Part shown: positions 32,317-36,207 of the stretch, in pieces
Numbering within the stretch: position 1 is the stretch's first letter
How the letters are laid out: every line of letters begins with the position of its first letter
Source: Pagrus major
Lineage: Eukaryota; Chordata; Actinopteri; Spariformes; Sparidae
DNA length: 64,000 bases
Assembly: GCF_040436345.1 (NCBI RefSeq)
Contig: NC_133230.1
Span: forward strand, 12,534,197-12,598,196
Reading direction: 5' to 3'
The notes under the pieces: generated by a model
Told to the model about the DNA's origin: nothing
What the model saw: only the letters and a program-made list of their open reading frames with translations
The model's database searches: none
Program-made: the position numbers and the translations under genes

Positions 32317-35300
32317 TCACATGAAGGAGTGGTCTGCTGGAGGCCCGTAGGAGAAGCCTGGGAAAGCTCCGGCTGCTTCCTTGACGCTGCTGGTCACAGT
32401 CAGGTTGTCCGTGCACAGAGAGGAGGACACCGGCAGGTGGGTGAACTCAGGGTCGAAGTGTCGGAGGTCTGTGGGACCGGACTGTGAAACCAAGCGGAGA
32501 GGACAAGATTTAGACATCTGAAGGAAATATGTCAAAGCACCTATCGAGGTTTATTGTAATGCATAATACCATTGTAGTTTGGTAATTTATTGATATTTTA
32601 AGTTACTGATTATGCAAAAATGTGAAGATTTGCTGCCCTTTACTGTAAGTGTTTTATTGGGTACTTTTATTTGAATTATTTTAAGTGTTGTAGTATTATA
32701 TGTTTTTAAATTAACTTATTTCATTTCCAATAATTGTTGTGGGATTCCACCTCGTACCACTAGAGGGAGCTTGCGTACCACCAGTGGAACATGTACTATA
32801 GATTGAGAAAAGTGGGTCACGGCCCTAGTTTGAACTTACCACTGAGGGGATGAATGGAGGAGTGATCTTCTTGGCCATCAGGTCCTCCCAGTTGATCGGA
32901 GAGAAGAAGGAGTGGTACTTGAGTTCAAGCTGGAGGAAGAAATACATTTCGAGATCAGCAGGTTGATAGAAAAAAAGCCACACATATCTCATACAGTTCT
33001 TTCTTTTTATGTCATGTTTTCTTAAAAGTCAGCTGTGCACACTTACAAAATCATCCTTCACTCCCAGCCTCTGGGTCCGGTCCTTCTGCAGGAGCCCCTC
33101 GAGCAGCTCCCTGCCTGAGTTCGACACGTTGGGCTTGAGCACGGGAGACTTGTGCAGGATGTTGTTGTACATCTCAGCTGTGTTACGACTGTAGAACGGG
33201 GGCTGTAAAGCAAAAGCAACAACAACAAATTAAGTTTATTCAATGCATGAATGAGCAGCAGTCGTACAAGGAGGTATAAAGGGATGGATTTGACTTACAA
33301 GTCCGTAGAGCATCTCGTAGAGAACGGATCCCAGACACCACCAGTCAACTGTGCGGTCGTACGCCTGCTTCTGGAGAACCTCAGGAGCCAAGTACTGCAA
33401 GGAAGGAGACAAGAACGAGTCAATACAAGTCAGACAATTATAATTGGTGGAGTTTCTGTCATAAATCTAGAGATTTGTTTTGCACCTCAGGTGTCCCACA
33501 GAAGGTTGTTGTTGTACCGTTGGCCTCAACACCTTCTTTGCAGAGGCCGAAGTCTGTGAGGACAATGTGGCCCTGTGAGTCTAACAGGATGTTCTCGGGC
33601 TTCAGGTCCCTGTGATGAAAAAGAGGAAAAAAGCTTTTACAAAAATGACTCTGGTCCTCTTTCAGTTCAGTTCAGCATTGATCATGTAAGCATAGTCCAC
33701 TAGGAGGCACTGTAGGTTCGCTCATTACCTGTACACAATGTGCAGGGAGTGGAGGTAGCCAAGTGCACTTGCAATTTCAGCAGCGTAGAACCTGGCTCTG
33801 GGCTCCAGGAAGATCCTCTCTCTCTGCAGATGGTAGAACAGCTGGAGAGAAAACAGACAAACATCCGTCAGCAACAACTCAAAACATACTTTGATGTTCT
33901 TCTGACCTGATTCTGGTCTGATTTCTGAGCGTTGTGAGGTTTGAACTCACCTCTCCACCGTTGACGTAGTCGAGGACGAAGTACAGCTTGTCAGTAGTCT
34001 GGAAGGAGTAGTGCAGCCCGACCAGGAAGGGGTGCTTGATGTTCTTCATCAGCACGCTGCGCTCAGCCATGATGTGCTTATGCTGGAAGGAACATATAGA
34101 AGTTAATATGACATTTTACATTATGAAACAGTGAGAACATGTAATGAGGTGTATGTATGAAAAGATAAAGACATAAAAGACTTTATCTAAAGGTCTTACC
34201 TCTTTCTTCTTCATGATAATTTTCTTCTGGAGCACTTTGACAGCGTAATATTTGGCCGACTCCTTGTGTCGAGCCAGCAGAACCTGTATTAAAGCGAATA
34301 TTTGCATCAGTGACTGTGCTGCAGCGCTGACAGATATGAGGAAGTAAAAAAGAAGACAGGCATGAACAGGAAAAGTTAGACACACTCACCTTTCCAAAGC
34401 TGCCTTTGCCGATGATTTTGAGGTAGTCAAAATCACAGGGTTTGATCCTAATGTAGAGAAAGGGACAGATGATTAGGATTTTTATTTAGACTGTGTTTGT
34501 TTTACAGAATTGTTGCTGACGGTGTTAAAAGTTTAGATTTTTATAAGGATACTTACTGAGTCTCCTCAGCCAGTGAACTTCTTGAATTTAGGCACATCTG
34601 AAAGATATGAATTAAGGAAGTTTATCAGTTAGTGCTGTAGTTTGGAAAGAAGTGAGTCATGTTGTCTGTAAACAGTTCCTGCTGCTTACCGGACCATCAG
34701 GAAGTGCATCATTCTCAATCTCCTCGTTTTGATTCTCATCAATCTTCAGGAAGTTGTTCACTTCAACACTGGGGGAAAAAAAGAAAACACAGATCTGGTT
34801 ACAAGATGAACTTTAATCAGATAATATCTTTTCACCATGTGGCTTTGTGTTCCTTTTTTGGTTTCACTATGATTTATGTGTTATTGAGTTTTGTGGCACA
34901 GCGGAGTCACAGGATCCACAGGAGTTTGTGCGACTGAAAAGCTGAATTGAACGCTCCCTGCTGCGGTGTGAATGACTGACTGAGACAGGTCAAGTTTAAC
35001 AGCCTAACCTGTCTGAGAAAAAGCTTAAGCCTCTGACCCACTACAAGAGATGGCTCTGCAGGACTCAAGAGGTCCAGCTTAGACACCCTTTCCTTGTGGG
35101 GCATCTGGAGGGAACAGATGCAGCGTCCCAGGTATATTTCCACACCACCGACCTGGATGTCAGGGCACTGTGAGGGGACGAGCCATGTATCATGTAATAA
35201 CTGAATTACCGGTTTATCCTCGTCTAGGGAACAGAGGGGATTTGTGGAAAGGTGATTAGGCAGCAGCAGCAGCAGCAGCGGAGGAGAGGTTGTTAACAGG

Positions 35301-36207
35301 CTCGTCATGAAAGGACTATTCTTACCCTGGCTTCTCGGACCCAGATTAAACTGTTCGCAGAATGTCCTGGCAAACTCAGGTGGCTGATGGGATTGGACAC
35401 TGATCATGAATGGGCTAATGATCAGAAATAAATATAGAGCCAGGAAGTGACTGATGCCAAGTGATGCTCCCTGTGTGCCACACTCATGCAATATGTTAAA
35501 AAAAATAAATAAATAGAAATACTCACTGTTGGCAGATGTGTGGGGTCGACACCAGCTTCTGGATGAAGTCATTCAGCCCCATTTTCCTCTCCTTGATGAA
35601 AGCTGCAGATGAAGAGAGGAAGGGAAGAAGTCAGCGTGTGATGAAGCCTCACTCACCTCACATGACGCAAAACATTTTGTCTTTCATTAGTGGGGGAAAA
35701 TATCTGTTGGGAGCTGTAATCCGCTGTTTTTTTGAGTTCAACACAGCCTGTCATAGGGTAGATTTGCGTGTTGTGCATAGACCCCTAATGCTGCGGGCTT
35801 ATGGGTTATGCAACCACTTGGGTCACTCATTCAGATACCAACAGTGGTGGCCAACAAAGCATTTTCCATCCCAGATTCCCAGCGCAGCGCAAATAATGAG
35901 TTTGCAGATTTTAAAGCAGATTAACACTCAATTAAAGGCGATTTATGTGCTATTTCCATAAAAGTAGAGCAGAAACGGCACTTTGCACTCTCCTTTTTAA
36001 TTTGATCTCTTGGCGGCTGTTTTGCTCACGAATCAATAAACACGTCTAATTTGCTCCACTAATCAATACATCAGCAGGTTAAGTGATCACTATTGATTCT
36101 GATAATTGTATTGTTTTTGTTTGTTTTTATTTCTCACCGGTGAGAACGGCGACAATCCCCCTCATTTTGCAGTAAGTAAGATCACATCCAGCCTCGGTCA
36201 CAGCCAT
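32317..36207 (-). CDS. sgk1: serum/glucocorticoid-regulated kinase (SGK1-like AGC kinase)
   Basis: 13 coding exons: 36138-36207, 35527-35602, 34690-34768, 34557-34597, 34390-34447, 34200-34283, 33951-34082, 33729-33841, 33486-33609, 33299-33394, 33047-33202, 32840-32929, 32317-32481. They total 1284 nt, 427 residues (human SGK1 has 431). The N-terminus [17 protein letters not shown] then [15 protein letters not shown] matches the SGK1 destabilising leader. Kinase features: GKGSFGK (102-108), ATP lysine K124, YRDLKPEN (catalytic D219), DFG (237-239), T-loop T253 in [14 protein letters not shown] motif for NEDD4-type WW domains (292-295), hydrophobic-motif S417 in FPGFSY. SGKs act downstream of PI3K, mTORC2 and PDK1 on ion channels and FOXO factors. 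The linker (50-90) lacks the PPSPSQQINLGPS stretch of SGK1. MAERSVL, KEGVE and FFSPINW resemble SGK2. It is either an sgk1 paralog or a fourth SGK type. Confidence 0.93.

Follow-up and report, generated by a model that had tools for sequence, protein, structure and literature searches.

An SGK1-type kinase gene beside eya3 in Pagrus major: a lineage separate from SGK1 and a candidate product of the early vertebrate genome doublings

Kinases of the SGK family are switched on by PDK1 at the activation loop and by mTORC2 at the hydrophobic motif, and SGK1 in particular is a drug target and a main effector of corticosteroid signalling. In fishes, SGKs are called poorly studied in a salmon study that reports expression of sgk2a and sgk2b (PMC6215684). 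A zebrafish sgk1-like gene (NM_001077302) is reported among the genes that larvae switch on within 1 h of light exposure (PMC3039656), and a table row of another source places it on chromosome 19, with SGK1 as its best human match (PMC3530609). Here, we describe an SGK gene located directly beside eya3 in a 64,000-nucleotide stretch of the genome of the sparid fish Pagrus major (RefSeq assembly GCF_040436345.1, contig NC_133230.1, positions 12,534,197 to 12,598,196 of the forward strand; hereafter, the window) and compare it with the described members of the family.

Trees, topology tests and diagnostic residues support a lineage distinct from SGK1 that predates the split between fishes and humans. 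The gene is probably a functional SGK1-type kinase that diverged from SGK1 before ray-finned fishes and tetrapods parted, most likely the SGK copy that the two early genome doublings (2R) left in the EYA3 block. Searches of open-licence PMC papers turned up no description of this eya3-linked lineage.

Gene model, kinase landmarks and leader

The gene occupies the minus strand (36207..32317) and consists of 13 coding exons (Table 1), with all 12 introns of the GT-AG type; the spliced coding sequence of 1284 bases contains a single terminal stop and encodes 427 amino acids. The first-pass annotation had delimited exactly this coding sequence and had called it an intact SGK adjoining eya3-xkr8, which was borne out, the window containing eya3 and two XKR genes. 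The closest solved relative of the protein is human SGK1 (2r5t, 620 bits), compared with 362 bits for AKT2, so that its AGC kinase domain is nearer to SGK than to AKT, S6K or PKC. All the kinase landmarks are in place, namely the G-loop, the AVK lysine K124, YRDLKPEN, DFG (D237) and APE, along with the two residues characteristic of an SGK, the activation-loop T253 preceding FCGTPE and S417 in the hydrophobic motif FxGFSY. Compared with sgk1 of the same fish, differences at codon positions 1, 2 and 3 number 42/227, 17/227 and 100/228, respectively (exons 6, 7, 9, 10, 11 and 12), and this concentration at the third position indicates that the frame is under purifying selection. A pseudogene was accordingly rejected, given the intact coding sequence and a codon-position pattern typical of a selected protein. 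Judging from the landmarks, the product would be an active kinase, with T253 the expected target of PDK1 and S417 that of mTORC2. It may be short-lived if residues G17-L22 of the leader, which we take to resemble the degradation motif of SGK1, act as such a motif.

The window belongs to contig C16 of a 786-Mb genome comprising 25 contigs, which suggests a fish having 24 chromosomes. A protein search of this genome yielded 109 exon-level matches, most of them to other kinases, and at least five SGK loci recognized by identity and exon content, on C16, C22, C17, C7 and C19; because such a search scores only the best candidates, the number is a minimum. Reconstruction of the exons identified the locus on C22 (C22:22181236-22184358) as sgk1, that on C7 as sgk2 and that on C19 as sgk3. 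The window gene is therefore additional to sgk1, sgk2 and sgk3, as the first-pass annotation had proposed in calling it a fourth SGK, although it is not simply the fourth because C17 harbors a fifth SGK locus.

The first exon, with its TYxKxRGxV pattern, and the leader are common to sgk1, the window gene and the C17 gene. When the leader of the window protein was used as the query, PX-domain chains of SGK3 came first (1xte, E = 5.2e-6) among 11 distinct sequences with E up to 1; the leader of the fish sgk1 matched the SGK3 PX chains less strongly (E = 6.5e-5). Against the Pfam PX profile, the window protein scored 21.4 bits (E = 3.6e-4), just below the cut-off of 21.6, and the fish sgk1 scored 16.1, the C17 protein not being listed. 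On the strength of these alignments, the second exon is a truncated relic, the end of an SGK3-like PX domain. The shared leader with the PX relic thus points to a common ancestor on the SGK1 side that had already dropped most of the PX domain.

Apart from this SGK1-like leader, the first-pass annotation had pointed to the SGK2-like words MAERSVL, KEGVE and FFSPINW. These residues were seen correctly and then over-read as SGK2-like: FFSPINW also occurs in the fish sgk1 and sgk2, and MAER in the fish sgk3, so that these words are not SGK2 signatures, and the SGK2-like residues of the protein appear to be mostly ancestral. An SGK1/SGK2 chimera was set aside, the SGK2-like residues being common to SGK3 or to the fish sgk1. 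Within the family, the sequence comparisons together place the window gene on the SGK1 side.

Age of the lineage

The trees cover the SGK genes of this one fish genome and human rows, in sets with and without the C17 gene, AKT and the human SGK2 and SGK3 sequences. Over 293 kinase columns, the window protein is 82.3% identical to the fish sgk1 and 82.9% identical to human SGK1, and the fish and human SGK1 are 92.5% identical to each other. In the tree, the latter two form a clade (98/95) that excludes the window gene. Forcing the window gene and the fish sgk1 into one clade gave p = 0.059 in the approximately unbiased (AU) test with the first set, 0.038 without the C17 gene, 0.042 when every row was kept and further columns were added, 0.023 when AKT was left out, and 0.028 and 0.039 for the kinase part without the human SGK2 and SGK3 rows; the clade is thus rejected in five of the six row or column sets.

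The residues agree with the trees. At 5 sites where both fish outgroups concur, the window protein keeps the state of sgk2 and sgk3, and the fish and human SGK1 have a different one in common; no site unites the window protein with the fish sgk1 only, and none with human SGK1 only. When human SGK2 and SGK3 were added and a majority rule was applied, the corresponding counts were 6, 0 and 1. None of the five SGK1-derived residues H96, S142, I176, N244 and N308 (window numbering) is present in the window protein. Hence, the gene falls outside crown SGK1, that is, human SGK1 plus the fish sgk1, since it does not group with the latter against the former (AU p 0.023-0.059), and it branches off before the fish-human split, at modest p-values. 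The first-pass annotation had claimed just such a separation and had named nesting inside teleost sgk1 as the outcome that would speak against it; tested with one fish and human, no such nesting was found.

The fish sgk1 lacks three introns, namely a phase-2 intron before xKPxDF, GSFGK|V and YR|DLKPEN, that occur in the window gene, the C17 gene, sgk2 and sgk3. A further intron, within exon 9 (LLDxx|GH), is common to sgk2 and sgk3 and absent from the window gene, the C17 gene and sgk1. For mammals, published descriptions give 12 exons for human SGK1, with an Asp/Asp single-nucleotide polymorphism in exon 8 (PMC2575233), and exons 4-11 as encoding the mouse kinase domain (PMC3827188). The window gene comprises 13 coding exons, with DFG in exon 9 and the kinase domain from exon 5 onward. 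If the exon 8 polymorphism affects the DFG Asp, as we presume, mammalian SGK1 seems to lack one intron of the window gene, the simplest candidates being the three that the fish sgk1 lacks, because the window gene has one exon more and its DFG and kinase start come one exon later.

The locus C17:17548439-17551740 encodes a fast-evolving SGK1-type kinase with an SGK1-like leader, 67-68% identical over the kinase columns to the SGK1s and to the window protein; it has the three introns missing from sgk1 and lacks the one between exons 9 and 10. There are 11 residues common to the window and C17 proteins and found in no other SGK row filled there, 19 sites common to the window protein and both SGK1s, not C17, and 7 common to C17 and both SGK1s, not the window protein. 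Without AKT, the two genes are sisters at 87/90, and the pairing stays open in other sets; a clade of the C17 gene with the fish sgk1 is rejected (AU p 0.0007 and 0.0028), although the long branch of C17 calls for caution as to its position. Downstream lies an L3MBTL gene that best matches L3MBTL3 (399 bits vs 366 for L3MBTL1), and none of the EYA matches from the genome search with TIGR01658 fell on C17. This gene may have arisen from the window lineage at the teleost-specific genome doubling (3R) or be a separate old copy.

Chromosomal setting and origin

In the genome, TIGR01658 produced 18 matches at four EYA loci, on C16 (eya3), C22 (eya4), C19 (eya1) and C6 (eya2), names that were assigned by comparing residues by eye with human sequences; the summed scores, which are noisy, would assign C22 to EYA2 and C6 to EYA1. 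Matches to Cmyb_C lie on C22, C19 and C6, the first ~122 kb from sgk1 and the second ~18 kb from the observed sgk3 exons. The resulting blocks read eya4-sgk1-myb on C22, eya1, sgk3 and mybl1 on C19, and eya3 with the window SGK on C16. In both the C16 and the C22 block, the EYA gene has the SGK upstream of it, on the same strand, and an XKR gene converging on it from the other side. On C7, a gene with MBT domains, taken by position to be l3mbtl1, lies ~10 kb upstream of sgk2. Full-length YTH matches occur on C19, on C16 at a distance of 6.5 Mb from the window, and twice on C7. The human map shows the same orders, EYA4-SGK1-MYB, MYBL1-SGK3 and L3MBTL1-SGK2, with SGK2 beside L3MBTL1 and within the EYA2 block. 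The human-type EYA2-SGK2-MYBL2 block is split over C6 and C7 in this fish.

A sequence of events compatible with these data would begin with an SGK1-side ancestor that swapped its PX domain for a short leader. The window lineage would then have split from SGK1, before ray-finned fishes and tetrapods parted, with the two early genome doublings leaving one SGK copy in the EYA3 block (human 1p35-type) and sgk1 and sgk3 in the EYA4 and EYA1 blocks, and with the EYA3 copy presumably lost in mammals. A 2R origin, as opposed to another old duplication, is suggested by position, the window SGK lying directly beside eya3 as sgk1 goes with eya4 and sgk3 with eya1; like the putative mammalian loss, it rests on this block position and on the human maps.

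Several observations weigh against this history. The linkage of sgk1 with eya4 and of sgk3 with eya1 fits a clean four-block arrangement, but sgk2 is on C7 and eya2 with a mybl2-type locus is on C6, unlinked in this fish, which speaks against it. Neither MYB nor MBT matches were found on C16; the C16 YTH gene that backs a 1p35-type chromosome is 6.5 Mb away; and the XKR gene beside eya4 is only 34 and 31% identical to the window XKR copies, which makes it a different XKR type, alike at the family level. In the trees, the node joining fish and human SGK1 drops to 93/91, unstarred, in the five-row set, the clade of the window gene with the SGK1s has moderate support (83/92 without C17, 87/92 with it, 84/84 in another set), and nodes stay open when AKT2 and C17 are both in the set or when C17 is included without the human SGK2 and SGK3 rows. 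The AU values for the window gene with the fish sgk1 are close to 0.05, one of the six being 0.059. The intron missing from human SGK1 is deduced from exon counts, not from the gene sequence, the history leaves the other SGK1-type gene, on C17, without an explanation, and the rows from one fish and human do not tell 2R from a later duplication that preceded the fish-human split.

The most serious competitor, which we nevertheless consider unlikely, is an old duplicate of SGK1, tandem or dispersed, that arose in early vertebrates or early bony fishes outside 2R, its place beside eya3 being coincidental or secondary. It draws on the C17 gene, which sits next to an L3MBTL3-like gene on a contig without an EYA match and may be the sister of the window gene (87/90), on the separation of sgk2 from eya2, on the lack of MYB and MBT matches on C16, and on the single genome behind the evidence; it leaves to chance that the window SGK adjoins eya3 on its upstream side and in the same orientation, just as is seen for sgk1 and eya4, and that sgk3 shares a chromosome with eya1. 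A copy of sgk1 dating from 3R or later, relocated next to eya3 and evolving more quickly, would account for the SGK1-like protein and leader in a group that underwent an extra genome doubling, and one of the six AU tests does not reject it at 0.05. The other five do (p 0.023-0.042, modest values), the window protein is equally distant from fish and human SGK1, it shares no residue with the fish sgk1 alone vs 5 kept in the ancestral state, and the gene retains three introns that the fish sgk1 lacks. We regard such a teleost duplicate as disfavoured by the AU tests and the absence of exclusively shared residues, and as distinctly improbable.

Very little speaks for a member of the SGK2 lineage, co-orthologous to SGK2. 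MAERSVL and KEGVE resemble SGK2, and the clade of the window gene with the SGK2s is not rejected (AU p 0.205 and 0.078), nor is that with the SGK3s (p 0.097). However, sgk2 is already present on C7 beside an MBT-domain gene, as human SGK2 is beside L3MBTL1, the window gene lacks the exon 9 intron common to the fish sgk2 and sgk3, and the shared residues recur in the fish sgk3 or sgk1. The 2R copy in the EYA3 block remains the favoured origin.

Promoter, neighbouring genes and comparison with known SGK genes

Upstream of the start codon, the gene has a TATA box, a cyclic AMP response element (CRE), E-boxes and a D-box (Table 1). The perfect D-box is expected 0.02 times in the window and appeared in 2 of 100 shuffled sequences; a further D-box match lies at -831. 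D- and E-boxes thus occur together in the promoter, as is typical of fish light-inducible genes; E-boxes number 10 in the window against 8.6 expected, a count that by itself is at the chance level. The 2 kb preceding the ATG of the fish sgk1 contain a single relaxed D-box and lack E-boxes, and upstream of the C17 SGK there is an E-box but no D-box. Consensus glucocorticoid response elements are absent from the window (0.35 expected), and hormone induction accordingly lacks sequence support here.

The combination of TATA box, CRE, E-boxes and the sole perfect D-box suggests rapidly inducible expression, perhaps responsive to light and the clock, and a light- or clock-driven SGK is a fair working hypothesis. 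Such a promoter would fit the light induction reported for the zebrafish sgk1-like gene, which is likely the published counterpart of the window gene, their orthology being putative; eya3, too, is on zebrafish chromosome 19. Taken further, a fourth SGK from 2R may survive beside eya3 in fishes, lost toward mammals, and may now be the fast member of the family, driven by light and the clock through its D-box, with sgk1 keeping the hormone role and the C17 gene as a second derivative; we offer this chain of suppositions tentatively and doubt that all of it holds.

The eya3 gene reaches upstream beyond 21.9 kb, as judged by eye, and its tail is of the EYA3 type by comparison with human EYA1-4. 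The window also contains a tandem pair of XKR8/9-type genes, 53% identical over 181 amino acids, where human presumably has a single XKR8; the name XKR8 is given to them by position beside eya3. The XKR gene near eya4 (C22:21.89-21.95 Mb) has its closest copy at C24:10.64 Mb (89% over 140 amino acids), a possible 3R pair, and in the eya4 locus itself (C22:22033409-22033702) the GKESCFER exon occurs in two adjacent versions, of which one has EYA3-like wording. A tRNA scan of the 64-kb window found no genes.

Table 1. Positions of annotated features in the window (distances are relative to the SGK start codon)
Feature	Position	Strand	Remarks
SGK coding exon 1	36138..36207	-	ATG at 36207, donor GTGAGA; SGK1-type first exon; TYxKxRGxV pattern also in C22 sgk1 and C17
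SGK coding exon 2	35527..35602	-	PX-domain-end relic; SGK3 PX chains are top matches; Pfam PX positions 49-82 of 84
SGK coding exon 3	34690..34768	-	exon reconstruction
SGK coding exon 4	34557..34597	-	followed by phase-2 intron missing in C22 sgk1
SGK coding exon 5	34390..34447	-	kinase domain start, G-loop
SGK coding exon 6	34200..34283	-	ATP-binding lysine K124
SGK coding exon 7	33951..34082	-	MAERSVL
SGK coding exon 8	33729..33841	-	exon reconstruction
SGK coding exon 9	33486..33609	-	DLKPEN, DFG, activation-loop T253
SGK coding exon 10	33299..33394	-	APE
SGK coding exon 11	33047..33202	-	exon reconstruction
SGK coding exon 12	32840..32929	-	FFSPINW
SGK coding exon 13	32317..32481	-	hydrophobic motif FPGFSY with S417, stop codon
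TATA box TATATAAG	36369..36376	-	TATATAA at -169 from ATG; 8-mer 4 times in window, 1.3 expected
E-box CACGTG	36382..36387		-180; second at 36957-36962, -755
CRE TGACGTCA	36458..36465		-258; 4 in window, 0.6 expected
Perfect D-box GTTACGTAAC	37130..37139		-932; sole one in 64 kb
eya3, 3' exons (conserved domain)	18125..20210	-	TIGR01658 matches; same strand as SGK
XKR gene, XKR8/9 type, copy 1	3075..5556	+	PF09815 matches
XKR gene, XKR8/9 type, copy 2	8107..10601	+	PF09815 matches

If the proposed history is correct, the EYA-SGK-MYB paralogon gains its missing SGK, and it becomes possible to test the history of the family, in which the SGK1 side lost PX ahead of the last split. If the zebrafish sgk1-like gene is an ortholog of the window lineage, results obtained with it should not be interpreted as findings on SGK1; like the window gene, it is an SGK1-like teleost gene, and the orthology of the two is putative.

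Among the described SGKs, SGK3 has a PX domain whose end aligns with the window leader (1xte), the rest of the domain being gone from the window protein, and its kinase domain is 73-74% identical. SGK2 is alike in MAERSVL and KEGVE, which we read as retained ancestral states, and is represented in this fish by a distinct gene on C7 with an additional intron in exon 9. The closest relative is SGK1, in human and on C22: it has the same leader, with the first exon and the PX-relic second exon, a kinase domain 82-83% identical over 293 columns, the same activation-loop threonine and hydrophobic-motif serine, and an EYA gene nearby. Unlike SGK1, the window protein lacks the five SGK1-derived residues and has lost the INLGPSxNP linker motif, and its gene keeps three introns missing from the fish sgk1 and adjoins eya3 instead of eya4.

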